Part shown: one piece after another, positions 27,049-63,660 of the stretch
Layout: each line of letters starts with the position of its first letter
Position numbering within the stretch: the stretch's first letter is position 1
Origin: Thermodesulfovibrio aggregans
GTDB lineage: Bacteria > Nitrospirota > Thermodesulfovibrionia > Thermodesulfovibrionales > Thermodesulfovibrionaceae
Length of the DNA stretch: 64,000 bases
NCBI RefSeq assembly: GCF_001514535.1
Contig: NZ_BCNO01000003.1
Location: forward strand, 123,344 to 187,343
Reading direction: 5' to 3'
Translations under genes and position numbers: made by a program
Notes under the pieces: model-generated
Seen by the model: only the letters and a program-made list of their open reading frames with translations
What the model was told of the DNA's origin: nothing
Database searches by the model: none

Positions 27049-28314
27049 ATGTCTAAAGGAAAAATTTTAGTATTGGATGATAGTCCTCTTGTAAGAAAAC
27101 TTGCAGAAGTCTCTCTACAGGAAGCAGGATATGACGTTTATACGGCAGGTGATGGAGAAGAAGGACTGAAAATTGCTGAGGAAGTTAAACCCGATTTAAT
27201 TTTAGTTGACTTTATAATGCCCAAGATGACAGGTGCTCAAGTATGTAAACTTATAAGGGAAAATGAGGTTCTTAAGGAAATTCCTATTATTTTGATTACT
27301 GGAAAAGGTGAAACAGTTGGAAAGACATTTATTGAAAAATACGGAGTTCTTGATTATTTCATAAAACCCTTCAAATCAGAAGAATTGGTAGGTAAAATTA
27401 ATCAAGTTCTTGGAAAAATTCCCCAGATTAAAGAAACTACTGAGGAAATCCCTGCTTTTAGTTTTGAACCTTCAGGAATAGAACTAAAAAGTGAGGAAGA
27501 AACAGAATCTTTCGAACTATCTGAGAGTGAATTACAAGAGTCTATTTCACTACCTGAAACTGAAGAAATATCATTGTCAGAAGAAAAAGAAATTAATTTA
27601 ACAGAAAAAATTGAATTAGAAGAAATTGAATTAAAAAAAGATACCCTTGAACAATTAGAGCCATCTCTTCCAGTAGAGGATCTGATTGAACCTGGAGAGT
27701 TGGAAATATTAGAAAAATCAGAAAGTTTTGAAATAGAAGAATTAAAAGTACAAGATATTAAGCCTGCTGAGGACTTAATTGAAGAATCAACAAAAACAGA
27801 GATTGAAGAAACAAAACTTGCCTTCGATTTAACTGCTCTTGAAAAAATAATAGATAATAAATTAGATAACTTTTATGAAAAAATAACCTCTCTATTTGAT
27901 AGCACAGTTGAAGCAACACTAAAAAAATATGGATTGATAAAAGATTATTCTGTTATTTTATCGGGAAGTTTAAATTTCTTCAGAATTTCTGAAATTTTTG
28001 ATTTAATCAATTCTAAAAACCTAAATGGTATATTCTATGCTTTTGGTAATGGGGTTGCTTACGAATTTTTATTTATAAATGGAAAAGTTATATATGGAAT
28101 CTCAAATTTACAAAAACAAAAAATTGGTTCCAAACTATTAAAAGAACTCTCTGATGAGGAAATAAAGAATTTTACTGTGGAAACTTTAAGTTACTTGAAA
28201 AATATTACGAACGGAAGTTTTATTTTTGAAAAAAAAGATTTTTCAGAAGCATGGTTGTTGAATAAACCAGGTTATACACCTTTAGAACTTTTTAGTGAAA
28301 ATATTATAAAATGA
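27049..28314 (+). CDS. Receiver - acidic linker - DUF4388-like protein (PatA/PixG-like)
   Basis: A 421-residue regulator. Residues 1-120 form a receiver domain with the acidic pair DD, the phospho-acceptor in LILVDFIMPKM near 54, ITGKG and the conserved lysine in FIKPF. Residues about 130-260 are an exceptionally glutamate-rich, low-complexity linker. The C-terminus (about 300-410) resembles DUF4388, with SVILSGSLNFFRISEIFDL and EFLFINGKVIYGIS. This REC plus DUF4388 combination recalls PatA/PixG of cyanobacteria (domain order differs), where it couples chemosensory signalling to type IV pili. Confidence 0.72.
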   Translation: MSKGKILVLDDSPLVRKLAEVSLQEAGYDVYTAGDGEEGLKIAEEVKPDLILVDFIMPKMTGAQVCKLIRENEVLKEIPIILITGKGETVGKTFIEKYGVLDYFIKPFKSEELVGKINQVLGKIPQIKETTEEIPAFSFEPSGIELKSEEETESFELSESELQESISLPETEEISLSEEKEINLTEKIELEEIELKKDTLEQLEPSLPVEDLIEPGELEILEKSESFEIEELKVQDIKPAEDLIEESTKTEIEETKLAFDLTALEKIIDNKLDNFYEKITSLFDSTVEATLKKYGLIKDYSVILSGSLNFFRISEIFDLINSKNLNGIFYAFGNGVAYEFLFINGKVIYGISNLQKQKIGSKLLKELSDEEIKNFTVETLSYLKNITNGSFIFEKKDFSEAWLLNKPGYTPLELFSENIIK

Positions 28315-28338
28315 TATAATATAATCAAAGGAGAGAAA

Positions 28339-28704
28339 ATGTATAAAGTTCTTGTTGCAGAAGATTCAAATGTAGATGCTAAATATATAGAGTCTATCCT
28401 CAAAGAAGGAGGATATGAACTTTTTTTTGCAAAAGATGGAGAAGAAGCTGAAGAATTGATAAAACGAGAAAATTTTGATTTAGTTATTTTAGATGTTGTC
28501 ATGCCTAAAAAAAACGGTTTTCAAATATGCAGAGAAATGAAAAAAAATGAAAAAACAAAAAATATACCTGTAATTATTGTTACTTCCAAAAAAGAGGAAG
28601 CTGATAAATACTGGGGTAAGATGCAAGGAGCTGATGAATATATTACAAAACCTTTTGAACCAATTGATCTTTTGGTAGCGGTGAAGAAATGTCTGAAGAA
28701 ATAA
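28339..28704 (+). CDS. CheY-like single-domain response regulator
   Basis: Stand-alone receiver of 121 residues. It has AEDSNVDAKYIE with the acidic residues, the phospho-acceptor in LVILDVVMPKKNG near residue 53, IIVTSKK with the conserved Thr/Ser and EYITKPF with the lysine. There is no output domain. It overlaps the CheW gene by 16 bases. In Pil-Chp or Pix systems such PilG/PilH or PixH proteins carry phosphate to pilus motors; that role here is inferred. Confidence 0.88.
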   Translation: MYKVLVAEDSNVDAKYIESILKEGGYELFFAKDGEEAEELIKRENFDLVILDVVMPKKNGFQICREMKKNEKTKNIPVIIVTSKKEEADKYWGKMQGADEYITKPFEPIDLLVAVKKCLKK

Positions 28705-32877: not shown

Positions 32878-34647
32878 CTATATTCCGATTATCTTACCAC
32901 TCTTTAAATCAATATCTATTCTCCTAAAATTCGGATCTGAGGCAGTTCCTGGCATTAGATTTATCTGTCCTACTACAGGAACAATGAGTTTTGCTCCTGT
33001 AAAAACTAAAATATCTCTTATAAATAACTGCCATCCTTTAGGAACTCCTCTTAATTCTGGATTGTCCGACAGACTCAAATGGGTTTTTGCCATACAGATT
33101 GAAAAATCAGAAAAATCAGTATTTGAGTTAATATTTTTAAGTTTTTCTAAAGCCAAAGGAGAAAATTCAATGGAGTCTGCTCCATATATTTCTCTTGCTA
33201 TTAACTCTATCTTTGAGATATGAGGAAGATTAATATCATAAAGAAATTTAAATTGTGATTTATTTCTGCAGACATCTATAATTATGTCAACAAGTTCAAG
33301 TGCTCCCTCACCTCCTTTCTCATAGTGATCAGCAACTGCCGCAGGAATTCCAACCTCTTTACAAGTTTTTTTAACAAATTCCAATTCATCAATGTCATCT
33401 ATTTGGAATTTATTTACACAAACAACAGGATTTATACCAGCTTTTCTAACAATTTTTACATGATGAAATAAGTTTTCAAGTCCCTTTTCAAGCCATTTAA
33501 AATTTTTTAAGACATATTCTTCTGGAAGAGGATTACCTGGAATGATCTTCGGAGCATCTCTATCAGCTCCATGATATTTTAATGCTCTTAAAGTAACTAC
33601 AATAACTGCTGCGTCTGGTTTCAATCCCGAAATCCTGCATTTTATGTTCCAGAATTTTTCAAAACCAATATCTGCTCCAAATCCACTTTCTGTGATGTGA
33701 TATTCACTGAGTTTAAGTCCTATTCTGTCTGCAATAATTGAGGATTGACCTATCGCTATATTAGCAAAAGGAGCTGCATGAACAAATACGGGCTGTCCTT
33801 CAATTGTCTGAATTAAATTGGGATTTATTGCTGAAACCATAAATGCTGTCATAGCTCCAGCAACTTCAAGGTCTTCTGTTGTTATAGGATTTCCTGATTT
33901 CGAGTATGCTACAACAATTTTACCAATTCGCTCTCTCAGGTCTTTTAAATCCTTTACCAGTGACAGTATAGCCATTAATTCTGAAGAAGTGGCTATATCA
34001 AATCTTGATTCCATTGGTATTCCGTCTTTTTTACCGCCAATTCCAATGATAACTTTTCTCAATGCCTGAGCACAGAAGTCAATCACCCAGCCCATCTGTA
34101 CTCTTTTTGGATCAATATCAAGCCTTTTCAATCCTTTTTTACAGAGGATCTCATCTGAATAGTTAGATTCATGAAACATTCTGGCAGTCAAGGCAACCAT
34201 TGCAAGATTATGAGCATTCATTACTGCATTTATATCACCTGTGAAACCAAGTGAAAATTCTGTTCTTGGAATGCATTGAGAAAGCCCTCCACCTGCTGCA
34301 CTCCCTTTTACATTCATTAATGGACCTGCAGAAGGCTGTCTTATTGCACAACTGACTTTCTTGCCTCTTTTACCAAATCCTTGAGTTAATCCTATGGTTG
34401 TTGTTGATTTTCCCTCACCAAAGGGGGTAGGAGTTACTGCTGTGACAACAATGTATTTGCCATTGTTATTATTCTTAATTCTTGAGTAAAGCTTTTGATA
34501 ATCCACTTTTGCCATATAATAGCCATATGGAATTATTTCATCCTTTGCAATGCCAAGCTCGTCGGCAAGCTGAAATATCGTTTTCATTCTTTTTTCAGCT
34601 TCTTGAGCAATTACCCAATCTGGACAGGATACAGTCCCTGCAAGCAT
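32878..34647 (-). CDS. fhs: Formate-tetrahydrofolate ligase (divergent)
   Basis: Makes 10-formyl-tetrahydrofolate from formate, THF and ATP in one-carbon metabolism or the Wood-Ljungdahl methyl branch. The P-loop is TPTPFGEGKSTTTIGL and the segment KGSAAGGGLSQ followed by GFTGDINAVMNAHNLAMVAL matches the family. Some positions differ from the usual consensus (RQPSAGP for RQPSLGP, GSAAGG for GGAAGG, PVVGQINLMPG near the end). The 589 residues are slightly longer than most. GAGGAGAG precedes the ATG. Formate dehydrogenases, often selenoproteins, could supply its substrate. Confidence 0.88.
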   Translation of the reverse strand: MLAGTVSCPDWVIAQEAEKRMKTIFQLADELGIAKDEIIPYGYYMAKVDYQKLYSRIKNNNNGKYIVVTAVTPTPFGEGKSTTTIGLTQGFGKRGKKVSCAIRQPSAGPLMNVKGSAAGGGLSQCIPRTEFSLGFTGDINAVMNAHNLAMVALTARMFHESNYSDEILCKKGLKRLDIDPKRVQMGWVIDFCAQALRKVIIGIGGKKDGIPMESRFDIATSSELMAILSLVKDLKDLRERIGKIVVAYSKSGNPITTEDLEVAGAMTAFMVSAINPNLIQTIEGQPVFVHAAPFANIAIGQSSIIADRIGLKLSEYHITESGFGADIGFEKFWNIKCRISGLKPDAAVIVVTLRALKYHGADRDAPKIIPGNPLPEEYVLKNFKWLEKGLENLFHHVKIVRKAGINPVVCVNKFQIDDIDELEFVKKTCKEVGIPAAVADHYEKGGEGALELVDIIIDVCRNKSQFKFLYDINLPHISKIELIAREIYGADSIEFSPLALEKLKNINSNTDFSDFSICMAKTHLSLSDNPELRGVPKGWQLFIRDILVFTGAKLIVPVVGQINLMPGTASDPNFRRIDIDLKSGKIIGI

Positions 34648-34875: not shown

Positions 34876-35220
34876 CTAACAGGTTAAATGAAAAGCACCG
34901 GCAACAGCTTTGCCCTCAGATAAAAGCTGATTAAATAATGCTACGGCTTTTTCTGTAGCACTTACAATAGTTTCAATTCCCCTTTGTTTGAGCTCTTCTA
35001 TTAAACTCTGGGGCACCTGCATTCTTTCATAAGCTCCTGTCCCAACAACAAGTATTTTGATATCCTTTGTAAATACTTCATTAAGATCCTCAATACACAA
35101 GGAATGCCCCTCTTTTCTCCACCATGATGGAATAACAGCGTCTGGGAATACTATGAGATCTTTAGTATATTCTGTCCCATCAACAACAATTTTTCCAAAT
35201 GAATAATGAGTGATTTTCAT
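34876..35220 (-). CDS. Mth938-like (DUF498) domain protein
   Basis: A single-domain protein of 114 residues with the Mth938 fold: IVVDGTEYTKDLIVFPD, PSWWRKEGHSL, ILVVGTGAYERMQVP and ETIVSATEKAVALFNQLL. Members occur alone or in mitochondrial complex I assembly factors; the bacterial role is unknown. ATG 35220 follows a GGGGG ribosome site. A longer frame to 35271 would run into the tRNA-Sec gene and is rejected. Confidence 0.82.
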   Translation of the reverse strand: MKITHYSFGKIVVDGTEYTKDLIVFPDAVIPSWWRKEGHSLCIEDLNEVFTKDIKILVVGTGAYERMQVPQSLIEELKQRGIETIVSATEKAVALFNQLLSEGKAVAGAFHLTC

Positions 35221-35242
35221 ACTTATACCCCCAAATAAAAGA

Positions 35243-35340
35243 TGGCGGGAGTGTGTGGGAATCGAACCCACCTTGCCCGCTCCTCACAGGCAACACTGGA
35301 TTTGAAGTCCAGGGGGGACACCAGAGCCCCATACACTCCC
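35243..35340 (-). tRNA. selC: tRNA-Sec (anticodon TCA)
   Basis: A 98-nt tRNA including encoded CCA. The acceptor stem is 8 bp (GGGAGTGT with ACACTCCC), the anticodon arm is CTGGA/TCCAG with loop CTTCAAA giving anticodon TCA at 35305-35303, the extra arm is long (TTGCCTG with CGGGCAA) and the T arm is GTGGG/CCCAC with TTCGATT. The 8+5 acceptor/T geometry and UCA anticodon identify selenocysteine tRNA, which reads UGA. The discriminator is G. The organism should therefore make selenoproteins; selA, selB and selD are not in the window. Confidence 0.95.
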
Positions 35341-35352
35341 AATGAACATGTT

Positions 35353-35961
35353 TTAAAATAAAAATTTATCTCGTAAATATTTAAGTATATCATCATATAC
35401 GGAGGGAACAACAAGAAAAATTTCAATATCTTTTGCTAAAGAAAGTTTAATTCTGTCTTGATCTCTTAAAATTAAAACTGCTGACTCTCCCTCCTTTAGG
35501 GTATCTGAAATTTTATTGCTTATTTCCATTATTCTTCTCTCTGTAGCTTTACTGAAATAATCAAAAACTCTCTGCATTACAGAACTTGTTTTAACAACTC
35601 TTAAACAATTTCCCCAATCAATAAATTCCCCAAAAACTGCAGGATCTTCAATCCCTATAACAATTGCTCCTTCAGATACTTTTTTCTCTATGAAAGGATA
35701 TAAGTAAGGATTGGTCTCTCTTATTACATTAACTGCTTCTTCGCCTTCAATAAATATTGTTTCAACAAATATTTTAGTAACAAAACCTAACTTTTCAAGT
35801 TTTTCTACATGAACAATCGCCTCTTCCCAATATTTCTCAACCAACTCTTTCAGTTTTTCATCTTCTTCATCGGCAACAAAAATATTGGGAATACAAAAAA
35901 GTCTCCTTTTGCCTTTGAATTCTTCTACGCTAAGTCGCTGTATTTTACCTAATTCAGCCAT
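35353..35961 (-). CDS. Conserved-looking soluble protein of unknown function
   Basis: A 202-residue, cytosolic-looking alpha/beta protein that I cannot assign. It opens with RLSVEEFKGKRRLFCIPNIF, has an acidic helix about residues 30-60 and a segment GAIVIGIEDPAVFGEFIDWG, and ends with VPSVYDDILKYLRDKFLF. There are two cysteines. It starts two bases after the trpD stop, so it is translated with the trp genes, and it directly precedes tRNA-Sec. No membrane, metal or nucleotide motif is evident. Confidence 0.6.
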   Translation of the reverse strand: MAELGKIQRLSVEEFKGKRRLFCIPNIFVADEEDEKLKELVEKYWEEAIVHVEKLEKLGFVTKIFVETIFIEGEEAVNVIRETNPYLYPFIEKKVSEGAIVIGIEDPAVFGEFIDWGNCLRVVKTSSVMQRVFDYFSKATERRIMEISNKISDTLKEGESAVLILRDQDRIKLSLAKDIEIFLVVPSVYDDILKYLRDKFLF

Positions 35962-35963
35962 GA

Positions 35964-36974
35964 TTAATTTAAATTTGAAAAGGCTTTAAACTCTTCAAAT
36001 TTCCTGTAAGCCCTGCCACTGTAAATAGATTCCTTTGCTATCTCAATTCCTTCCTTAAAATCTCTAGCAATTCCTGCAACCTGAAGTGCTCCAGAAGCAT
36101 TCATTAAAACCATATCCAAACAGGGAGTTTTCTCCCCTTTAAGAACACTCAAAAATATTTCTGCACTATTTTTTCTGTCAACACTCTTAATATCTTTCAA
36201 TAATGCTCTTTTAATCCCCAGATCTTCTGGACAAATAAAGGTTGAGCTGACCTCACTATCTTTTGCTCTTACAATATGTGTTTTTTCAGTAACTGTAATC
36301 TCATCAAGTCCGTCTTCACTATGGACAACCATTATATCCTCTGAACCAAGTTTCATCAAAACTTTAGCAATTGTATCCATATATTGTTTTGAAAAAACAC
36401 CTAAAAGCTGACGTTTAACCTGAGCAGGATTAAGCATCGGACCAAGAATATTAAACATTGTTCTTATTTTTAGCTCTTTTCTGACAGGAGCTACCCTCTT
36501 CATGGCAGGATGATAAAGGGGTGCAAAAAGAACTGTAACTCCGCATTCAAAAAGAGCTTTCTCAGCCCTCTCAGGCGTCATATTAACATTTATTCCAAGC
36601 TCTTCCAAAACATCAATGCATCCACATTGACTTGAAGCAGAGCGATTTCCATGTTTTGCCACAGGAACTCCTGCTGCAGCAACAACAAAAGTTGTGGCAG
36701 TTGATACATTAAATGTTCCAGAGTGATCTCCACCTGTTCCTACTATATCAATGGCATTCTCAGGAGCTCTTATCTTTATTGCATACTCTCTAAAAAGCCT
36801 TACTGATTCAAGAATCTCCTCTTCTGTCTCCCCTTTCATGGAAAGTCCCATAAGAAAAGCTGCAATCTGAGCCTCTGATGCTCTGCCTTCAATAATATCA
36901 ATAAAACTCTTCCTCAGAAGTTCTGCTGATAAATCTTCTTTTTTACTCAGTTTAATTATTGCTTCAGTTATCAT
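35964..36974 (-). CDS. trpD: Anthranilate phosphoribosyltransferase
   Basis: Second step of tryptophan synthesis, attaching phosphoribose to anthranilate. Signatures include [19 protein letters not shown] for PRPP binding, [12 protein letters not shown], and LGPMLNPA; the N-terminal helical domain has [20 protein letters not shown]. Length of 336 residues is normal. It overlaps trpG by four bases, and the unknown 202-residue gene follows. Other trp genes (trpC, F, B, A) are not seen in the window. Confidence 0.95.
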
Positions 36975-37534
36975 AGTTTTAAAAAATTTTTCAGTAAATC
37001 CTTCCCAACTTTTGTTAATATGCTTTCAGGATGAAACTGAACACCTTCGATTATGTATTCTTTATGTCTTATACCCATAATTATACCATTTGAAGTCCAT
37101 GCTGTGACAGTCAGACAATCGGGTAAACTTTCTTTATCAATAATAAGAGAGTGATACCTTGTTGCCTCAAAAGGATTTGGAAGGTCTCTAAAAATTGTTT
37201 TACCATCATGGTAAATAAGAGACGTTTTACCATGCATTATCTCTGGACAGCGAACTATTTTTGCACCAAAAGCTGCACCAATTGCTTGATGACCGAGACA
37301 CACTCCAAGAATTGGTACTTTTCCTGCAAAATGCATTATCACATTACATGAAACTCCAGCTTCTTTTGGAGTGCATGGACCTGGCGAAATTATTATCCTT
37401 TCAGGATTGAGCTTCTCAATCTCTTCTATAGTAATCTGATCATTTCTGTAAACAACAATATCTGGATTAATCTCTCCAATGTATTGATAAAGATTGTAAG
37501 TGAATGAGTCATAGTTGTCAATTAAGAGAATCAT
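36971..37534 (-). CDS. trpG: Anthranilate/aminodeoxychorismate synthase glutamine amidotransferase
   Basis: Class I glutaminase that supplies ammonia to TrpE and possibly PabB. The catalytic triad is visible: Cys in [10 protein letters not shown], His and Glu in [10 protein letters not shown]. It starts [21 protein letters not shown], the family's typical beginning. Length of 187 residues is normal. It overlaps trpE and trpD by four bases each, so the three are translationally coupled. Confidence 0.95.
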
Positions 37535-39021
37535 TTCTGCTCCTTTGACTCTAAAAAGCTCACTGCTTTTAGCATGGCAGTTGCCTTATTGACTGTTTCA
37601 AGATACTCTCTTTCAGGAACTGAGTCTGCCACTACTCCCGCTCCTGCCTGAACATATACTTTTTTATCCTTTATAACAAGCATCCTTATACCAATGCACA
37701 TATCCATATTCCCACTAAAACCGAAATACCCTATTGCTCCTGCATATGGACCTCTACGGGTTGGTTCAAGTTCTTCAATAATCTGCATTGCCCTTACTTT
37801 TGGAGCTCCGGTAACTGTTCCAGCAGGAAAACAGGACATAAATACATCAAAAATATCAAGCCCTCGCCTGAGTCTACCTTCAACATTACTTACAATATGC
37901 ATTACATGACTGTATCTTTCAATTGTCATAAGCTCTGTAACATTGACTGAACCTATTTCTGCCACTCTACCCACATCGTTTCTCCCAAGATCAACAAGCA
38001 TAATGTGTTCAGCTATTTCTTTCTCATCGCTAAGTAAATCTCTCTCAAGTGCGATATCTTCCTCTTCAGTTTTTCCCCTTGGACGGGTTCCAGCAATTGG
38101 TCTTAGGGTAATTTTTTCATCTTCAACTCTTACAAGAATTTCAGGAGATGAGCCAACAATATGCCCTTCACCTATATCAATATAAAACATATATGGTGAG
38201 GGATTTATTATTCTTAGTGCTCTATAAATATCAAATGGATGGACATCTGAAGTTGTTTCAAATCTCTGAGAAATAACCACCTGAACAATATCACCGGAAA
38301 AAACATAATCTCTTGCTTTTTTTACAGCATTGATAAAATCTTCTTTTTTAAAATTTGAGACAAACCCATGTAATGGTTCTTTATCGCTGTTTTTTGTAAC
38401 ATATAAATAGGATCTGAATCTTTCATCCTTGTGGTTTTTCAGTTCTTTAATTATTGTCTCTATCTTATCCTGAGCTTTTTCATAAATCTCTTTAGCATTC
38501 CCTGAGTTTAGAAAAGCATTGTAAACAATCTTTATTGACTGTTTGAGATTGTCAAATATTAAAACTGTTTCTGGAATCATGAGAAATATATCAGGCATGT
38601 CAATGGATGGCTTTTCAAGATCAGGAACCTTTTCAAAAAGTTTTACAGTATCGTAAGATATGTAGCCAACCATGCCTCCGAAAAATCTTGGAAGCCCGGG
38701 CTCTAAATAGGCTTTGAATTTTTTGAAAAAATTCTTTAGAAAATCAAATGGATTTGCATTATCAAAACTGTTTTGCTCCAAACCATTTAAAACTATATTT
38801 CTACCTTTTGATTTTATTATAAAAGCAGGATCAAATCCAATAAAAGAATACCTTCCCCATTTTTCACCACCGACAACGCTTTCAAGAAGAAAAGAGGGCT
38901 TTTTATTAAGCTTTAAAAAAGCACCAACAGGAGTATCAAGATCAGCAATTATCTCCCTGTAAAGTGGAATAACATTGTATTTCTCGGATAAAGATAGAAA
39001 GTCCTTTTCACTTAGATTCAT
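37531..39021 (-). CDS. trpE: Anthranilate synthase component I
   Basis: Makes anthranilate from chorismate with ammonia from TrpG. Conserved segments are [66 protein letters not shown] and [15 protein letters not shown]. An N-terminal LLES motif is present, the usual tryptophan-feedback site. Length of 496 residues is normal. It follows nrdD by 46 bp, so it may be read from the metE-nrdD transcript or its own promoter. No leader peptide rich in Trp is seen. Confidence 0.95.
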
Positions 39022-39067: not shown

Positions 39068-42000
39068 TTAATTCTTCATCTGTAAGTATTTTCTATCTTT
39101 GAATTCCTCTTTTTTACCTTCATTCCAGTTATCAACAGGTCTAAGATAACCGACCACACGAGAATAAACTTCTGTTGTTCTTCCACATTTTGGACAACTC
39201 TGATGTTCTCCTTCTATGTATCCACATTCAGGGCAGATGCTGAATGTCGGAGTAATGCTTATGTAAGGGAGTCTATATTTTTCAAAAACTGCCTTTATAA
39301 AGTTTTTCAGCCTCTCAGGCTCTGGCTGTTCTCCTAAAAATAGATGAATAACTGTTCCACCAGTATATTTACTTTGAAGTTCATCCTGATGATCAAGAAT
39401 ATAAGTTATTGACTCTGTAAAGTTTACGGGTAACCATGTTGAGTTTGTGTAATAGGGATTTTCCCTGCCCTGTGTAATTATATCAGGATACTTCTGTTTA
39501 TCAATCTTTGCAAGTCTATAACTTGTCCCTTCTGCAGGTGTTGCCTCAAGATTGTATAAATTGCCTGTCTCTTTTTGATATTCCATAAGTTTTTCACGCA
39601 TGAAATCCATTACCTTCAATGCAAATGCTTTTCCTTCCTCTGTCCATATTCCTTTTGAACTTAACCATCTTGCGTTCGCAATTGCTTCATTCATTCCAAT
39701 TATACCTATTGTTGAAAAGTGATTGCACCAGTATGCCCCTGTTCTTTCCTTTACAGAGCTGAGATAATGCTTTGAATACGGATACAGTCCTGCATCTGTA
39801 AATCTTTCAAGAACCTTGCGTTTAATCTCAAGGGAAGTTTTTGCAATATCCATAAGTCTTGTAAGATATGTAAAGAATTCTTCCTCTGATTTGCTTAAAT
39901 ATCCAATTCTTGGCAGGTTCAATGTAACAACGCCAATGCTATTACCGCACCAAGTTGATTTTCCTTTTCTTCTGACCATTATTATATGATTATGAACTTC
40001 TACACAATATACTTTTCCTTTATAATATTCTTTTCTTATATTATGCTTTCTGAATCTATAATCCTTAGACTTTTGTATACTTATTTCCCAGACCCCATTT
40101 GAATGAATTTGTCTTCCTTTTATTTTTGATGTTTTTTTAATCTTCTTAATAGTTGAAATATATCCTAATTTAAGCACTATTTCCTGAAAATCTTCAGCTA
40201 ATTTATCAGATGCTGTCCAGTATATTATTTGTCCAGTTGATTTTCTTATATATCCATCTCCTTTGATCATCCAATCAAAAAGTAATTTTAGTTGTCTTTT
40301 ACTTAAGTTTTTGATTTCTTTTGGGATGTATTTGGTATATTTGTCACCAAATTGGCGTAAATAACTCCAAAGTTGTTTATTACAAATTACAAAATTTGAG
40401 CCCTCTTCATAATAGTTAAATGGCAAAGAAGTTAATAGTTCTTTAATTTCTTTTCTTATTTTTTTATTTTTTTGAGTTATAGTTACTCTATATCCATGGG
40501 AAGGAGCAATATTTTCATTATCTGTTGAACCTTCTGCTAACCATATTCCAAAAAATTTTAACCAATCATCCATTTTTATTTTTAAATGCTGAGTTTCATA
40601 TCTTAATCTTACTCTTTTTCTATTACCATAATTTTCCCTAGTGCATATGTTATGAATAGTTACTGAGTTACAATCAAATTCATTGGCTATTTGATAAATT
40701 GTTTTCCCTTCTTTTTTTAAATTTCTGATTTCTTCAATTTCAAAGTCAGAAAATTTTGTTTCTGGACCTGTACCAGACATTATGGGGACTGAAGGCAAAA
40801 TAAAATATTCTTTTTCTTCTTCCTCCCATATACTTTGTTTAGGAATTCTGTCTCTGTTAGGATCAAAATCTTTAGCTTCTACAAATTTATAAACCCATTT
40901 TTTCCCATCCCATCTTTTAACAAACATCCTGTGATTTGGTGTTACTAACAAATCAAAAGATTTATGGTGAAATCTTATCAATTCTCCATCCCAATCATAT
41001 TCAAAAATTCTAATTGGTTTATGTATTTCTATTTTTCCATCCATTGTACGAGTAAAGAGTTCATCATCTAGAGTTAATTCACTAAATTTTTTCCATCCAG
41101 ATAGAGTCAAAACCTCAGTTTCTTCATCATAGCAACCAGTTAAAGGGTTTGAACCAAAAAGTCCACCACCACGGTGTTTAAGCTCTCTTGTCTCAAGCCT
41201 GAGCCTGCAACACATACTTCTTGCATCCTCAGGTTTTAGGTCAGAGTTTACATAGTTTGCAAAATAGGGAATTCCGTATTTTGCCGTTGCCTGCATGATT
41301 AAGTCAACAACAGGGCTCTGCCAGTCAAAATCTTTTGTAATGTTTATTGTAGGAATGGGAAAAGTGAAAACCCTTCCCTTTGCATCTCCTTCTGTGAGAA
41401 CCTCAAAAAGTGCCCTGTTGAACATATCCATCTCTTTCTGAAATTCACCGTATGTAGCTTCCTGAGTTTTTCCTCCAATAATTACAGCCTGCGATGCAAG
41501 ATGTTCAGGCACCTTCAAGTCAAGGGTAATGTTACTGAAGGGAGTGTTTCCTGTTATAAAAACCTGTCCATTTCTTCTTGCAATAACTGTCTCGTTTTCA
41601 GTGTGAACACTCCAGATAACACCTGTATAGTCAATTTTTTCTATTTTGCTTATATGATCATTTTTCGTCTCAGTAAGGGTAATTATGTATTGAATTTTCC
41701 TGGAGATCCCTCCTGCTTTTCTCTCTTTAACATTAAAGTTATATCCTGCAAGAACTGCCATGGCAGTGATGAAATCAACAGAATTTTTATCGGTGACAGT
41801 GATTCTTTTTCTAAACTTTTCATGCCAGCCATCACCTTTAATGTAGGTTTCCAGAAAAAGTCTTGCCTGAGGCTTGCTTAGTCTGTAAAGATATTCAGGG
41901 AATTTTTTAATTTTTGCTCCCATAAGTGTGTGAACTTTTTTACTTGATGAAGGAGAAAGTCTGATATGGGCACATAAACCGAGAGATTTCTGCTCTTTCA

Positions 42001-43291
42001 CGGTGTATTCAAATCCGAGTTTTTCAAGAAGTTCTATAATCTCATTATAATTTTCAAAGTGACAGTAGGGAGACTGATAGATGCTAACTCTATGACTTCC
42101 ATTGTTCTCTATGCTTCCTTCAGACATAATCCATGCAAGAAGCTTTATTTCTTCATCTGAGATTGGATAATCGGGATTTTTATTTTCTCCTGTTACAGGT
42201 ATCACTACAGGAGAGTTTAATTTTAATATATCCTCAATGGGTTCAAGAGTGTTTTTTTTCGTATTGAAAATTTTTCTTACCACTCTGTGTCCTGGCGATA
42301 TGAGCTGTTGTTGACTTCTATTTTTCAGGCAATACATGTATCCAGAGTATTCAGCCCTGAAAACATAGGTAACAGGTTTTGTCTCAATTTCTGAAGTATC
42401 TAAATTAAAAGTGTAGATTAAATCTCCGATCTCTACTTCGTTGTACTTCTTCCAACCTTCGGGTGTTAAAATTTCCGTATCCTGAGAAAGACATTGAAAC
42501 CCCACCCTTGTAGGCACATTCAGGTTAAAAACCCACTCCTGCAAAGCCTGCTTTACCTGTTTATAATTAAGTTCATCATATGCTATGAATGGTGCAAGAA
42601 GGGTGTCAACATTGCTAAATGCCTGCGCACCTGCTGCCTCTCCCTGAAGTGTGAAAAGAAAGTTTACAATCTGTCCAAGTGCGCTTCTAAAATGTTTTGC
42701 AGGCTTTGATTCCACTTTTCCTGCCACTCCACCAAATCCACGAATTAACAAATCCATTAAATCCCAGCCCACACAATAGGGAGCAAGCACATTCAGATCG
42801 TGGATATGCAGACTCCCATCTATATGAGCTTTTCTTACCTCTGGTGGATAAATCTTATGAAGCCAGTAGCTTTTACTTATCTCACTTGATATGTAGTTGT
42901 TTAATCCCTGAAGGCTGAAGCTCATGTTGGAGTTTTCTCTTACCCGCCAGTCAACTTTGCTTAGGTAGTTGTCAATCAGCTCAAGCCCGCCCTGACGGGC
43001 AATCTCACGCATACGAGCGTGCTGATCACGATAAATAATGTAGGCTTTTGCGGTTTTACGATAGGGACTGCTTAAGAGTATCTCCTCAACAATGTCCTGA
43101 ATCTCTTCCACATGGGGGTCACGGTCACGAATCAATTCCTCAGCAAGAAGTAAAACCTTAATTGTAAGCCTCTTTGCAGTTTCATAGTCAAACTCTCCTG
43201 TTGCCTTACCTGCCTTTGATATGGCTATGGTGATTTTTTCAGGGTCAAATGCAACCCGACGACCATCACGCTTTATTATGTTTTTAAACAT
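39068..43291 (-). CDS. nrdD: Anaerobic (class III) ribonucleoside-triphosphate reductase with two inteins
   Basis: Oxygen-sensitive glycyl-radical enzyme making dNTPs from NTPs. The 1407-residue precursor starts with an ATP-cone (IIKRDGRRVAFDPEKI). Two inteins interrupt it at residues 267-582 and 720-1117, leaving a 693-residue enzyme of normal size. The C-terminus has the zinc site CPECGY with CPKCGR and the glycyl-radical motif RVVGYLRPVDNWN (Gly 1381 of the precursor). ATG 43291 has an AAGGAGG site inside the metE end and overlaps that gene by eight bases. The activase NrdG was not found nearby. Confidence 0.96.
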   Translation of the reverse strand: MFKNIIKRDGRRVAFDPEKITIAISKAGKATGEFDYETAKRLTIKVLLLAEELIRDRDPHVEEIQDIVEEILLSSPYRKTAKAYIIYRDQHARMREIARQGGLELIDNYLSKVDWRVRENSNMSFSLQGLNNYISSEISKSYWLHKIYPPEVRKAHIDGSLHIHDLNVLAPYCVGWDLMDLLIRGFGGVAGKVESKPAKHFRSALGQIVNFLFTLQGEAAGAQAFSNVDTLLAPFIAYDELNYKQVKQALQEWVFNLNVPTRVGFQCLSQDTEILTPEGWKKYNEVEIGDLIYTFNLDTSEIETKPVTYVFRAEYSGYMYCLKNRSQQQLISPGHRVVRKIFNTKKNTLEPIEDILKLNSPVVIPVTGENKNPDYPISDEEIKLLAWIMSEGSIENNGSHRVSIYQSPYCHFENYNEIIELLEKLGFEYTVKEQKSLGLCAHIRLSPSSSKKVHTLMGAKIKKFPEYLYRLSKPQARLFLETYIKGDGWHEKFRKRITVTDKNSVDFITAMAVLAGYNFNVKERKAGGISRKIQYIITLTETKNDHISKIEKIDYTGVIWSVHTENETVIARRNGQVFITGNTPFSNITLDLKVPEHLASQAVIIGGKTQEATYGEFQKEMDMFNRALFEVLTEGDAKGRVFTFPIPTINITKDFDWQSPVVDLIMQATAKYGIPYFANYVNSDLKPEDARSMCCRLRLETRELKHRGGGLFGSNPLTGCYDEETEVLTLSGWKKFSELTLDDELFTRTMDGKIEIHKPIRIFEYDWDGELIRFHHKSFDLLVTPNHRMFVKRWDGKKWVYKFVEAKDFDPNRDRIPKQSIWEEEEKEYFILPSVPIMSGTGPETKFSDFEIEEIRNLKKEGKTIYQIANEFDCNSVTIHNICTRENYGNRKRVRLRYETQHLKIKMDDWLKFFGIWLAEGSTDNENIAPSHGYRVTITQKNKKIRKEIKELLTSLPFNYYEEGSNFVICNKQLWSYLRQFGDKYTKYIPKEIKNLSKRQLKLLFDWMIKGDGYIRKSTGQIIYWTASDKLAEDFQEIVLKLGYISTIKKIKKTSKIKGRQIHSNGVWEISIQKSKDYRFRKHNIRKEYYKGKVYCVEVHNHIIMVRRKGKSTWCGNSIGVVTLNLPRIGYLSKSEEEFFTYLTRLMDIAKTSLEIKRKVLERFTDAGLYPYSKHYLSSVKERTGAYWCNHFSTIGIIGMNEAIANARWLSSKGIWTEEGKAFALKVMDFMREKLMEYQKETGNLYNLEATPAEGTSYRLAKIDKQKYPDIITQGRENPYYTNSTWLPVNFTESITYILDHQDELQSKYTGGTVIHLFLGEQPEPERLKNFIKAVFEKYRLPYISITPTFSICPECGYIEGEHQSCPKCGRTTEVYSRVVGYLRPVDNWNEGKKEEFKDRKYLQMKN
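39941..41134 (-). other. Intein 2 of NrdD (LAGLIDADG type, with HTH insert)
   Basis: A 398-residue in-frame intervening protein. It begins CYDEETEVLT after NPLTG, has block-B VTPNHRM, two LAGLIDADG-like motifs (FFGIWLAEGS near intein residue 198; LLFDWMIKGDG near 289) and ends KSTWCGN before the extein serine of SIGVVTL. A helix-turn-helix-like stretch (about 132-163, GKTIYQIANEFDCNSVTI) lies between the splicing and endonuclease parts. The residue before the terminal Asn is Gly rather than the usual His. Boundaries are set by the flanking NrdD sequence. Confidence 0.93.
41546..42493 (-). other. Intein 1 of NrdD (LAGLIDADG type)
   Basis: A 316-residue in-frame intein. It starts CLSQDTEILTPEGW after the extein RVGFQ, has block-B ISPGHRVV (His near 69), LAGLIDADG-like motifs LLAWIMSEGS (about 118) and LETYIKGDGW (about 215), and ends NGQVFITGN before the extein threonine of TPFSN. 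The penultimate residue is Gly rather than His. The first residue is Cys and the +1 residue Thr, so class 1 splicing is expected. Intact DOD motifs suggest possible homing activity. Confidence 0.93.
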
Positions 43292-45515
43292 CCTTTGCCT
43301 CCTTACGCATTATCTCTGCAACTTTAACCATGTTTTTAAGCGAGGAAATTGTTTCCTGCCATCCTCTTGTTTTAAGTCCGCAATCAGGGTTTATCCAGAA
43401 AAGTCTTTTGTCAATAAGCTTTATTGAGCGTTTTACTATCTCAAGCATTTCTTCCACTGTTGGCACTCTTGGAGAGTGAATATCATATACTCCAATTCCA
43501 ATGCCTCTGTCATATTTAAATTTTTCAAAGGCTTTGAGAATCTCTCCTTTGCTCCTTGATGCTTCAATTGATATCACATCAGCATCCATTGCATAGATTT
43601 TTTCAATTATATCATTAAACTCAGAGTAGCACATGTGGGTATGAATCTGAGTCTCAGGTTTTACAGCTCCTGTAACAATTTTAAAGCTTTTTATAGCCCA
43701 GTCAAAATACTCATCAACCTTTGCTTTTTTAAGTGGCATTCCCTCTCTCAGGGCAGGCTCATCAATCTGAATGATTTTTATACCCGCTCTCTCAAGCTCC
43801 ATTACTTCTTCCTTGAGAGCAAGAGCAATCTGATAGGCAACTTCTTTTTTTGAGATATCCTTTCTTGGATAGGACCACTGAAGAATTGTAACAGGTCCTG
43901 TAAGAATTCCTTTCACTGGCTTTTCAGTGAGAGACTGGGCATAAAGCGTTTCTTTAAAAATCAGAGGGTTTTCCCTCCATACATCGCCATAGATTATTGG
44001 TGGTCTTACACATCTTGAGCCATATGACTGAACCCATCCATTTTTTGTGACAGCAAACCCTTGAAGGCGCTCTGCAAAAAACTCAACCATATCAGTTCTT
44101 TCAAACTCTCCATGAACCAGGACATCAAGCCCTATCTGTTCCTGAATCTCTATTGCCTTTTTTATCTCCTGATTGATAAACTCTTCATACTGCTCAAGGG
44201 AAATTTTACCAGCCTTAAAGTCTGCTCTTACTTTCCTTAATTCAGCAGTCTGAGGAAAGCTTCCTATTGTGGTGGTTGGAAAAAGAGGAAGTCTGAGGAT
44301 TTCCATCTGTTTTTCATATCGTTCACTGAAGTCCTGTTTTCTATCAAGGGCATTTTCATCAATTTGAGAGATCTTTTTCCTGACCTCAGGATTGGTAAAT
44401 TTTATGGATAAATTCTGCTCTGGAGGCTCTTTCCCTTCATTTATTGCTGTTTTAAGCAGTGTAAGTTCTTCAAGCCTTTCATTGGCAAAGCTTAAAAGGC
44501 GCAGAATTTCCTCAGGTATGGATTCATTTTTCACAGTCACTGGAAGATGCATGAGAGGACAGGAGTTTGAAAGAATTATGTTTTTCGTAAACTTTGTGAG
44601 AGTTTCAATAAGTTTCAATGTTTCAGTAAAATCTGTCTTCCACGGATCTCTTCCTGAGACAACTCCTGCAATTAGGATTTTATCGTTGGGAAAACCGAAT
44701 TTTGAGATACTGTCAAGATTTTCTCTTCCATCAACAAAATCAAATCCAATACCATTAACTGGCAGTTCATAAACTATTTTTTCATAGTGTGACAGGCTTT
44801 CATAGTAAGTTTGAATGTAAACCTTTATTTTGCTGAGCCCGGCAGTGATTTTCCTGTAACAATCAATGATTGCCTGAACAGTATTATTCTCTAAATCAAG
44901 AACCATTGCAGGCTCATCAATCTGAACTTCTTCAACATCAGATTCTTCAAGCTCTTTAAGAAGCCTCATGTAAACAGAAGCTATCCTGTCAAGAAAATAT
45001 GCATAGTCCTTTACTTTGGCACAGTAAAGATAGGTAAAAGGACCTGTAAGCACAGGCTTTGTTTTAAGATTAAGGCTATTTTTAAGAAGTTCATACTCTT
45101 TCAATGGTTTATTCTCTTTGAGTTCAAACCCGGTTGTTTTTTCAATCTCAGGAACAATGTAATGATAGTTTGTGTTAAACCACTTTGTCATCTCTGAAGC
45201 AGGTGCATCTGCTGTACCTCTTGCTATTGCAAAGTATCTTTCCATTGGGTTTGAGATATTTTGAAATCTCTCCGGGATAACATTAAACATAATTGAGAGA
45301 TCAAGAATAAAATCATAAAGAGAGAATTCATTTGATGGAACAATGTCAATTCCATGCTGGACAATGGTTTTTGCATTGTTGATAATTAATTTCTCAGCTT
45401 CTTGGGCAAGCTCCTTTTGAGAGATTTTTCCACTCCAGTAGGATTCAAGGGCTTTTTTTAGCTGTCTCTGAGGACCAATTTTGGGATAGCCAAAGACAGT
45501 TGTTTTAACGGTCAT
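43284..45515 (-). CDS. metE: Cobalamin-independent methionine synthase
   Basis: Transfers a methyl group from methyltetrahydrofolate-triglutamate to homocysteine without B12. The 743-residue length and two-barrel layout are typical. The zinc ligands appear in HTHMCYSEF and WINPDCGLKTRGW, and LPLFPTTTIGSFPQTAELR marks the start of the catalytic barrel. It lies immediately downstream of a cobalamin riboswitch and overlaps nrdD by eight bases, forming a B12-sparing operon with another B12-independent enzyme. Confidence 0.96.
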   Translation of the reverse strand: MTVKTTVFGYPKIGPQRQLKKALESYWSGKISQKELAQEAEKLIINNAKTIVQHGIDIVPSNEFSLYDFILDLSIMFNVIPERFQNISNPMERYFAIARGTADAPASEMTKWFNTNYHYIVPEIEKTTGFELKENKPLKEYELLKNSLNLKTKPVLTGPFTYLYCAKVKDYAYFLDRIASVYMRLLKELEESDVEEVQIDEPAMVLDLENNTVQAIIDCYRKITAGLSKIKVYIQTYYESLSHYEKIVYELPVNGIGFDFVDGRENLDSISKFGFPNDKILIAGVVSGRDPWKTDFTETLKLIETLTKFTKNIILSNSCPLMHLPVTVKNESIPEEILRLLSFANERLEELTLLKTAINEGKEPPEQNLSIKFTNPEVRKKISQIDENALDRKQDFSERYEKQMEILRLPLFPTTTIGSFPQTAELRKVRADFKAGKISLEQYEEFINQEIKKAIEIQEQIGLDVLVHGEFERTDMVEFFAERLQGFAVTKNGWVQSYGSRCVRPPIIYGDVWRENPLIFKETLYAQSLTEKPVKGILTGPVTILQWSYPRKDISKKEVAYQIALALKEEVMELERAGIKIIQIDEPALREGMPLKKAKVDEYFDWAIKSFKIVTGAVKPETQIHTHMCYSEFNDIIEKIYAMDADVISIEASRSKGEILKAFEKFKYDRGIGIGVYDIHSPRVPTVEEMLEIVKRSIKLIDKRLFWINPDCGLKTRGWQETISSLKNMVKVAEIMRKEAKDV

Positions 45516-45710
45516 TTAATTCCTCCCGCGAGGTATTCTGAAAGCCAAAGGCTTTCAGGCTGGATAGGTCTTCCGGCTCTGGGCTCAGTGCCTACTTGCC
45601 CGCCTTCCCAGAGATTTCTCTCCAGTGGCTTACTGGGCTTTCGTTCCCAACACGGCTGCGGGGCAGCGGGGGATTCTCACCCCTCTTCCCTTACATCCAG
45701 CAATTTTGAA
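45516..45710 (-). promoter_or_regulatory. Cobalamin riboswitch upstream of metE
   Basis: Read on the minus strand, the aptamer spans about 45701-45559 and is closed by a perfect 7-bp P1 (GCTGGAT with ATCCAGC). It holds the conserved core TGAGAATCCCCC, CTGCCCCGCAGCC and the B12-box AAGCCACTGG. Downstream is a 9-bp hairpin (45558-45538) and then CCTC-GCGG-GAGG, in which the metE ribosome site is paired. This suggests translational OFF control by B12, with the first hairpin possibly part of the switch. The class is recognised by its motifs; the exact pairing in the bound state was not computed. Confidence 0.93.
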
Positions 45711-45738
45711 AATACATTAAGTAGAAAATTTTTGTCAA
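45711..45738 (-). promoter_or_regulatory. Promoter for riboswitch-metE-nrdD
   Basis: On the minus strand TTGACA (45738-45733) and TGTATT (45716-45711) are 16 bp apart. The -10 box lies about 10 bp before the riboswitch aptamer, which places the transcription start just ahead of the aptamer. Confidence 0.55.
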
Positions 45739-53515: not shown

Positions 53516-54051
53516 ATAAAATAATCTTAATTGGCTTAATAGGTAAGGAAGGTTCAGGGAGAGCATTAGTAGCTGATTATCTTGTTATAAAGCACGGCTT
53601 TGTAAAATGTTCTTTTGAGAACTTTATTAAACACATCTTACTTATGGCAAAAATGTGTAATGTCAATGAATTATTTGTTGAAAAAACTTTCTATTCAAGA
53701 TGGCTTATATTGAAATTGAGAGAAATATTAAGAGAATATATTGATAAAAATTATCTTGTAAGAAAAATGCTGGCTAAAATTGGTGAACTGTTATCGCATG
53801 GTTATAAAAAAATTGTTATTGAAGATATTAGATTTGAAAATGAAGCAGAATTAATCAAACTATTTAATGGTAAACTCGTAAAAATTATCAGAACCTTTCC
53901 TTTTCCTTCAACAACACATTTCAGTTCTGTGGAAAAATTTATTGATACTCTTCCGTATGATTATATCTTGGAAAATAGGCCAAAATTAGAAGACTTATGT
54001 ATGCAAATAGAAGATCTATTACTTTCTATCTATTCAGGAGGTATAAAATGA
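53512..54051 (+). CDS. P-loop kinase-like protein with altered Walker A
   Basis: A 179-residue protein resembling deoxynucleoside monophosphate or dephospho-CoA kinases. The N-terminus, ILIGLIGKEGSGRALVADYL, aligns with the family's GxAGSGKDTVADYL loop, but Arg replaces the phosphate-binding lysine and Ala follows it. Later VIEDIRFENEAELIKLF matches the family's VIxDVRFxNEA segment well. It overlaps the oxidase gene and the PagL gene by four bases. Loss of the lysine suggests weak or no kinase activity, or an unusual phosphate contact by GK at the loop start. Confidence 0.65.
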   Translation: MNKIILIGLIGKEGSGRALVADYLVIKHGFVKCSFENFIKHILLMAKMCNVNELFVEKTFYSRWLILKLREILREYIDKNYLVRKMLAKIGELLSHGYKKIVIEDIRFENEAELIKLFNGKLVKIIRTFPFPSTTHFSSVEKFIDTLPYDYILENRPKLEDLCMQIEDLLLSIYSGGIK

Positions 54052-63173: not shown

Positions 63174-63542
63174 ATGGACATATTTGAAAAAATTGCTGAA
63201 GAAAGAATCAGGGAAGCAATTGAACAGGGGCTTTTTGATGACCTTCCTAATAAGGGGAAGCCTTTAAAAATAGAAGATTATAGCTGGGTTCCTGAAGATT
63301 TAAGACTGGCTTATAAAATTTTGAAAAATGCAGGCTGTATTCCTCCTGAGATGGAAATAAGAAAGGAAATCATAGATTTAAAAGAACTTCTAAAAACAAT
63401 AGATGACGATGAAGAAAGAATAAAGAAAATTAGAGAACTTAATTTTAAACTTCTTAAATTCAATATTGGAAGAAAACGCCCCTTTTATCCTGAAGACTTT
63501 CCTGAATACGAAGAAAAAATTATAAAAAAATTTATTGAATAA
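63174..63542 (+). CDS. DUF1992 (DnaJC28-like) domain protein
   Basis: A 122-residue protein with the DUF1992 sequence FEKIAEERIREAIEQGLFDD, LPNKGKPLKIED, LRLAYKILKNAGCIPPE. The domain occurs alone in bacteria and as the DnaJ homologue subfamily C member 28 domain in eukaryotes; its function is unknown. It is the only gene between the GGDEF gene and tRNA-Ser. It starts at ATG 63174. Confidence 0.88.
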   Translation: MDIFEKIAEERIREAIEQGLFDDLPNKGKPLKIEDYSWVPEDLRLAYKILKNAGCIPPEMEIRKEIIDLKELLKTIDDDEERIKKIRELNFKLLKFNIGRKRPFYPEDFPEYEEKIIKKFIE

Positions 63543-63629
63543 CGGAGAGGGAGGGATTCGAACCCCCGGTGGGAGTGACCCCACAGCGGTTTTCGAGACC
63601 GCCCCAATCGTCCACTCTGGCACCTCTCC
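63543..63629 (-). tRNA. tRNA-Ser (anticodon CGA)
   Basis: An 87-nt class II tRNA. Acceptor GGAGAGG pairs with CCTCTCC, the anticodon arm GCGGT/ACCGC with loop CTCGAAA gives anticodon CGA (63595-63593) for UCG codons, and a long extra arm identifies the serine type. The T arm contains GGGGGTTCGAATCCC-type sequence. The discriminator is G and CCA is not encoded. Confidence 0.94.
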
Positions 63630-63660
63630 AAAAGTTTATAATAAATTATATCATGTAGAG

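Follow-up and report, generated by a model that had tools for sequence, protein, structure and literature searches.

The stretch of DNA analysed here (64,000 nt of Thermodesulfovibrio aggregans, hereafter the window) belongs to contig C3; the genome comprises 1,997,652 bases in three contigs. ARAGORN identifies two tRNA genes in it, a tRNA-Ser(CGA) at 63542–63630 and a selenocysteine tRNA (tRNA-Sec, gene selC). The latter raises the questions of whether this organism makes selenoproteins and of whether the genes beside selC have any part in it.

An ordinary selenocysteine tRNA gene beside fhs

The ARAGORN call, a tRNA-SeC with anticodon TCA, covers exactly positions 35243–35340 (minus strand) and places the UCA anticodon at 35303–35305. 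The Rfam family RF01852 matches 35247–35340 over its full model (1–91 of 91); the score of 77.4 bits (E = 3.6e-14) lies above the gathering score, which is 47. As read from the sequence, the acceptor stem has eight pairs (GGGAGTGT/ACACTCCC) and the T stem five (GTGGG/CCCAC), the variable arm is long, position 73 is a G and the CCA end is encoded. The anticodon, G73, the 8-bp acceptor, the long variable arm and a score over gathering place the gene in RF01852, so the complete tRNA-Sec that a sequence-only reading had recognised here stands. A search of 16 genomes, all of a single genus, found a UCA tRNA-Sec in 15 of them (72.6–77.4 bits with RF01852), and column identity averages 97% in the alignment of the genus. 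In the remaining genome (G006, 72% complete) no RF01852 match exceeded 52.1 bits, and the match with this score is a tRNA-Ser. On its own, the tRNA-Sec of the window is ordinary and only confirms the use of selenium.

The gene is flanked by fhs and trp genes, as had also been noted from the sequence, and all of these lie on the minus strand: fhs (formate–tetrahydrofolate ligase, 32878–34647; NF010032, 1029 bits) on one side, and trpD, trpG and trpE (35964–39021; TIGR01245, TIGR00566 and TIGR00564, over their cut-offs) on the other. A DUF498 gene (PF04430; 34876–35220, minus strand) sits between tRNA-Sec and fhs, just downstream of the former. The PF04430 match (96.8 bits, residues 20–128) was obtained with a longer, GTG-started ORF (34876–35271); since this ORF overruns tRNA-Sec, we placed the start, by reading the sequence, at the ATG at 35218–35220. 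Upstream of tRNA-Sec, between it and trpD, there is an ORF of 202 aa (35353–35961, minus strand) that had no match in Pfam or NCBIfam and that adjoins tRNA-Sec in nine of the 15 loci of the genus, its own locus counted.

The proximity of fhs had been taken as suggestive of a formate dehydrogenase selenoprotein, and this argument fails on comparison. In flanks that reach at most 1.5 kb and in places stop at a contig end, fhs adjoins tRNA-Sec in all 15 loci of the genus versus none of 22 loci outside the genus but within the class, so that the neighbourhood looks like gene order inherited within one genus and not like a sign of function. An fdhA-like gene adjoins tRNA-Sec in one of these 22 loci (L313), and the fdhA gene of the window genome sits on contig C1, not on C3.

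Selenocysteine genes and candidate selenoproteins of the genome

A tRNA-Sec is charged with serine by SerRS, and SelA converts this serine to selenocysteine using selenophosphate supplied by SelD; SelB then places selenocysteine at UGA codons that have a stem-loop downstream. The tRNA-Sec of the window would work by this textbook route. The sequence-only reading had concluded that the genome makes selenoproteins, and named selA, selB, selD and a SECIS-bearing fdh gene as the genes to look for, with absence of the first three counting against it. All three are present over their curated cut-offs, with a single match each (SelA, 627 bits; SelB, 387.6 bits; SelD, 379.3 bits). SelD contains one in-frame TGA (...KAAG-U-AAKIGPGDL), and so does one of the four molybdopterin oxidoreductases of the genome. 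Read through its TGA (...HQARI-U-HSPTVAALAESFGRGAMTN), the latter scores 1490 bits as formate dehydrogenase-N alpha (cut-off, 814.2), and is designated FdhA; the gene that follows fdhA codes for a beta-like subunit (TIGR01582, 206.5 bits, below the model cut-off of 334.7). In fdhA, the 50 bases running from the TGA form a stem-loop (−23.7 kcal/mol, z −3.2, equalled by 1 of 200 shuffles), and in selD the corresponding bases form a weak one (−9.2 kcal/mol, z −1.6, equalled by 19 of 200 shuffles). The in-frame UGA codons of both genes are at the usual selenocysteine sites.

The machinery and these UGA codons support the production of selenoproteins as a prediction from sequence, the likely users of selenocysteine that we found being selD and the FDH-N-type formate dehydrogenase, and both genes need annotation through the UGA. 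The set as a whole (an 8/5 UCA tRNA, SelA, SelB and SelD, and selD and fdhA with in-frame UGA) resembles the bacterial Sec-decoding trait and shows no notable difference from it, the position of tRNA-Sec beside fhs being seen only in this genus among the loci compared. The other three molybdopterin enzymes of the genome contain no TGA and, judged by eye, did not resemble an FdhA with cysteine in place of selenocysteine. A gene for a selenium metabolism-associated LysR protein (LysR_Sec_metab, NF040786, 328.9 bits) lies some 6 kb past fdhA.

A scan of the window for TGA read-through with a loose criterion gave 37 places, of which the one at 28312 and the one at 54049, with the two ORFs around it, were looked up; no convincing selenoprotein was seen. 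The TGA at 28312 (plus strand) is the only place joining two long ORFs, and is flanked by two complete response-regulator domains. In the region 27049–28704 (plus strand), a response regulator–DUF4388 gene and one of CheY type share a frame and are split by this TGA and 24 bases; since both receiver domains are complete, these are probably two genes. Two TGA joints in the selA region were also rejected, as each joins separate genes: a MamQ-like match and an ORF of no family in one, and phosphatidylglycerophosphatase A and RNA 2′,3′-cyclic phosphodiesterase in the other.

A second, Sec-like tRNA with cysteine identity

Outside the window, the same genome carries on contig C1 a further tRNA with a Sec-like body (139341–139429, minus strand; RF01852, 59.9 bits), which ARAGORN calls as a tRNA-Cys(GCA) of 93 nt and which we designate the star tRNA. 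Its body resembles that of tRNA-Sec in the eight-pair acceptor, the long variable arm and the D arm; within the genus, both tRNAs have the same T stem and nearly the same T loop. Its identity elements, the GCA anticodon and U73, are those of cysteine. Besides the star tRNA there are a canonical tRNA-Cys (C1:1101394) and one CysRS over cut-off; a second CysRS, sought in this genome only, was not found. From these elements we infer that the star tRNA would be charged with cysteine. Since GCA cannot read UGA, its target codon must differ from that of tRNA-Sec, and should be UGU/UGC.

The fold of the star tRNA is well kept in the genus: in six sequences, the copy of the window genome and those of five relatives, which all pair as 8/5, 97.1% of the cells are paired, and two-sided changes occur in 11 of the 29 pairs (shuffle mean, 3.0; slid controls, 0–2). 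Among 23 loci of the class read in the 8/5 frame, the five T-stem pairs form in 22 and all eight acceptor pairs in 18, with the 5′ end misplaced for a few loci (L107 and L124 with certainty). U73 and the encoded CCA are kept in 22 of the 23; the anticodon loop was set by the search pattern and hence is uninformative on conservation. With the split left free, 9/4 is the better fit for two loci from Nitrospirota (L157 and L172), and some loci outside this phylum match 8/4.

A tRNA-Cys of this kind, selC*, was reportedly described by Mukai et al. (2017). The review PMC7609411 gives it an 8/4 structure with one A bulged out, a GCA or UCA anticodon and U73, and counts Nitrospirae among its carriers. 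The copy of the window genome shares with selC* the tRNA-Sec-like body, the long variable arm, GCA, U73 and the occurrence in Nitrospirae. It differs in being 8/5 instead of 8/4 and in having no unpaired A at 51a, so that we file it as selC*-like, and in that star tRNAs of this class are linked to yedF and LysR_Se.

Distribution of the star tRNA

The pattern used for the searches, which asks for a GCA anticodon and a long variable arm, can find GCA forms only, not UCA. It matched 47 of 295 sampled Nitrospirota genomes, of which 37, all in the class of the window, were taken as genuine on reading the matched letters. These include G238 (L119), although its star tRNA looks degenerate; the other ten were dropped because the matched letters were spurious or doubtful (G053, G102, G184, G255, G147, G124, G156, G119, G212 and G048). 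A scan of named genomes gave at least 80 loci (at least 119 stretches). Among those listed, 43 were judged genuine, 39 with a tRNA-Cys call by ARAGORN and four by fold alone, and 37 spurious; the genuine ones include loci from Nitrospirota, Bacillota, Thermodesulfobacteriota, Actinomycetota and Chloroflexota.

Within the genus, the star tRNA is present in six of the 11 genomes that are at least 94% complete. The other five seem to be without it, yet keep SelA and YedF; the best second RF01852 match is a tRNA-Ser in four of them and, in the fifth (G013), lies at a contig end with no ARAGORN call. Co-occurrence with SelA said nothing about the star tRNA, as a SelA match was found in 36 of 37 star-positive versus 40 of 43 star-negative genomes. 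YedF, sought over whole genomes, is commoner with the star tRNA (31/37 versus 21/43; Fisher 0.002, among genomes that are related). One genome, G148, contains both tRNA-Sec and the star tRNA and gave no match to SelA, SelB or YedF, perhaps because of an assembly gap.

Selenium genes beside the star tRNA

Comparison of the ORFs around 24 star loci revealed two recurrent neighbours, YedF (TIGR03527) and LysR_Sec_metab (NF040786); the NCBIfam names were checked on nine proteins, eight encoded beside star tRNAs and one from the window genome. PMC5322559 gives YedF and LysR_Se as candidate selenium genes by comparative genomics, and proposes LysR_Se as a selenophosphate sensor. The profiles used to test for yedF and LysR_Se were made from neighbours of star tRNAs, and those for selA, selB and selD from the window genome. 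In the class, 12 of 23 star tRNA loci have yedF, LysR_Se or selB at a distance of about 1.5 kb or less, versus none of 22 tRNA-Sec loci (Fisher 7e-5, the P values being too small since the test genes were picked after being seen beside star tRNAs and the genomes are related), and none of the three was found near the star tRNA in the remaining 11 loci. The 22 are what remains after leaving L327 out of the tRNA-Sec set, because the best RF01852 match of G047 is its star tRNA; G266 and G029 had no tRNA-Sec match at the strict threshold, among the candidates scored (at most 111 per genome). When both tRNAs were tested in the same genome (17 genomes), the star tRNA alone had a selenium gene nearby in nine, and tRNA-Sec alone in none. 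Around the other tRNAs of the window genome, none of 30 partly overlapping loci has yedF, LysR_Se or selB. In the class of the window it is, then, the star tRNA rather than tRNA-Sec that often sits among selenium genes.

Of 31 genomes with both yedF and the star tRNA, 16, from nine families, have them within 4 kb of each other; in three they are on the same contig at a distance of at least 39 kb, and in 12 on different contigs. Six of the 16 linked genomes fall among the 14 outside the set of 20 genomes in which the link was found. In six genomes (G126, G132, G175, G254, G266 and G292) yedF comes 43–102 bases after the star tRNA, on the same strand, and loci L144, L171 and L187 have the order LysR_Se–star tRNA–yedF on one strand. 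Among the named-genome loci listed, a selenium gene lies at 1 kb or less in 19 of the 43 genuine versus none of the 37 spurious ones, a count that is not independent of the 12 of 23 above since several named contigs are identical to contigs of sampled genomes. In the window genome the star tRNA is 39 kb from yedF (2.8 kb in G015, of the same genus) and the sole SelB is located elsewhere, so the link is seen in relatives and not in this genome. A search of the literature gave no paper linking the star tRNA to yedF or LysR_Se; such a link may stand in the primary selC* papers.

Additional SelB genes adjoin star tRNAs in one family

SelB was found in 39 of 41 genomes searched, 37 with the star tRNA and four without. 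Four of the 41 have additional copies, five in all (two SelB each in G172, G185 and G286, and three in G288), and each additional copy is directly beside a star tRNA. These four genomes belong to one family, which is not that of the window; in the window genome, a second SelB beside the star tRNA was not found. Two of the extra SelB, along with two star tRNAs, are in G288; one of these SelB (G288:C142) is truncated (524 aa) and without the RNA-binding end. In a tree of 42 SelB, the five extra copies group as one clade (100/100) nested among their family's SelB and separate from those beside star tRNAs in other phyla. This nested position suggests that the pairing of SelB with the star tRNA arose there on its own. 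Pairs of selC* and SelB* have been reported from Syntrophobacterales and Desulfobacterales (PMC7609411). The pairs seen here, which occur in four relatives and not in the window genome, likewise place a SelB copy immediately next to the star tRNA; they differ in their separate origin inside one Nitrospirota family and in the GCA anticodon, to which our pattern was limited.

We scored the conservation of the four full-length extra copies over the columns that do not vary among seven ordinary SelB from the family, using approximate block limits of our own. The fractions kept in the GTPase domain, domain II and domain III are 0.92, 0.89 and 0.82, and those in the next four blocks 0.68, 0.83, 0.68 and 0.63; the corresponding values for SelB of other families are 0.93, 0.88 and 0.80, and then 0.73, 0.75, 0.74 and 0.86. 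The excess loss in the last block (0.63 versus 0.86) was reached in none of 20,000 column permutations, with the same result for three copies. The last domain of SelB binds an mRNA hairpin. By this comparison, the extra SelB keep their GTPase and amino-acid-binding domains about as other SelB do and are most changed at the RNA-binding end, which points to a possible set of mRNAs of their own.

Some further genes adjoin these pairs of star tRNA and SelB*. In G288 (contig C62), the extra SelB is directly followed by a gene for a TonB-dependent receptor of the CU-motif type (L149:4378–6426), with TGC-TGA (Cys-Sec) at codons 476–477. A double-cubane reductase and its activase adjoin the pair in G286 and G288 (L146:9860–11895 and L157:48–2089), the families being assigned in L146, and by size and look only in L157. 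PMC5322559 names genes that look alike, for a 2-hydroxyglutaryl-CoA dehydratase subunit and a CoA enzyme activase, among those linked to selenium.

Possible roles of the star tRNA

We are highly confident of the general picture, an ordinary tRNA-Sec with a complete set of Sec genes and, in addition, a Sec-shaped tRNA-Cys that in this class is linked to selenium genes and in relatives has an extra SelB. A tRNA-Cys of the selC* kind is as such already known. As to the role of the star tRNA, we prefer, tentatively and with slightly less than even confidence, that the single CysRS would load it with cysteine and that SelB-type factors, in place of EF-Tu or alongside it, would handle at least some of its delivery, this channel forming part of how the cell handles its selenium status. 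The objection is that it is hard to see what a cell would gain from a SelB that brings ordinary cysteine to ordinary cysteine codons. It is possible, if unlikely, that the star tRNA and SelB or SelB* make up a second, mRNA-directed channel, in which hairpins bound by the changed RNA-binding end of SelB* would select the UGU/UGC codons that receive cysteine or selenocysteine, tied to selenium through LysR_Se and YedF. Recoding of UGA as cysteine, reportedly described by Vargas-Rodriguez et al. in 2018, likewise combines a non-canonical tRNA-Cys with SelB, but the GCA anticodon found here cannot pair with UGA.

Several simpler or different roles have to be weighed against SelB-type delivery of cysteine. 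The star tRNA could be an extra tRNA-Cys for ordinary translation with EF-Tu, copied from tRNA-Sec and standing at an old selC site. GCA and U73 are plain cysteine identity, the T stem is common to the star tRNA and the tRNA-Sec of the genus, and the apparent absence from five near-complete genomes of the genus suggests that it is dispensable. However, none of the 22 tRNA-Sec genes of the class stands among sel genes today, the linkage to yedF recurs in nine families, and in one family the star tRNA gained a neighbouring SelB copy whose RNA-binding end has diverged more than that of other SelB; we consider this role rather unlikely. The order LysR_Se–star tRNA–yedF on one strand and the Sec-like body would also suit a regulator or decoy that, under control of LysR_Se, binds SelA or SelB and adjusts how much of them is free to the selenium supply; selenophosphate sensing has been proposed for LysR_Se (PMC5322559). 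Such a decoy would not need U73 and an encoded CCA, which nearly all loci of the class keep (22/23), and appears quite improbable. The role that we find hardest to credit is charging with serine through the long variable arm, followed by conversion by SelA, so that selenocysteine would be placed at UGU/UGC codons. It agrees with the long variable arm and the tRNA-Sec body, with a domain II that is kept in SelB* as in other SelB (0.89 versus 0.88), and with tRNA-Sec of sense anticodons reported by Mukai et al. (2016, as cited in PMC7609411), but U73 is a mark of cysteine, whereas tRNA-Sec here and the three tRNA-Ser checked have a G.

A Sec-like tRNA-Cys that should read sense codons, with selenium linkage across families and a gain of SelB separate from that described in other groups, suggests that delivery by SelB-type factors may go beyond stop codons. 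There would then be a hidden, context-dependent decoding of cysteine codons, invisible to gene finders. The genomes and proteins given above are concrete material for testing this.

Other features of the window

Gene nrdD (39068–43291, minus strand) codes for a class III ribonucleotide reductase of 1407 aa. Its match to the family profile is split into three stretches by intein-like sequence, with TIGR01445 at aa 267–335 and a LAGLIDADG match at aa 1009–1055, corresponding to one or two inteins. A cobalamin riboswitch (45546–45736, minus strand) is situated upstream of nrdD and of the gene for a B12-independent methionine synthase (43284–45515).
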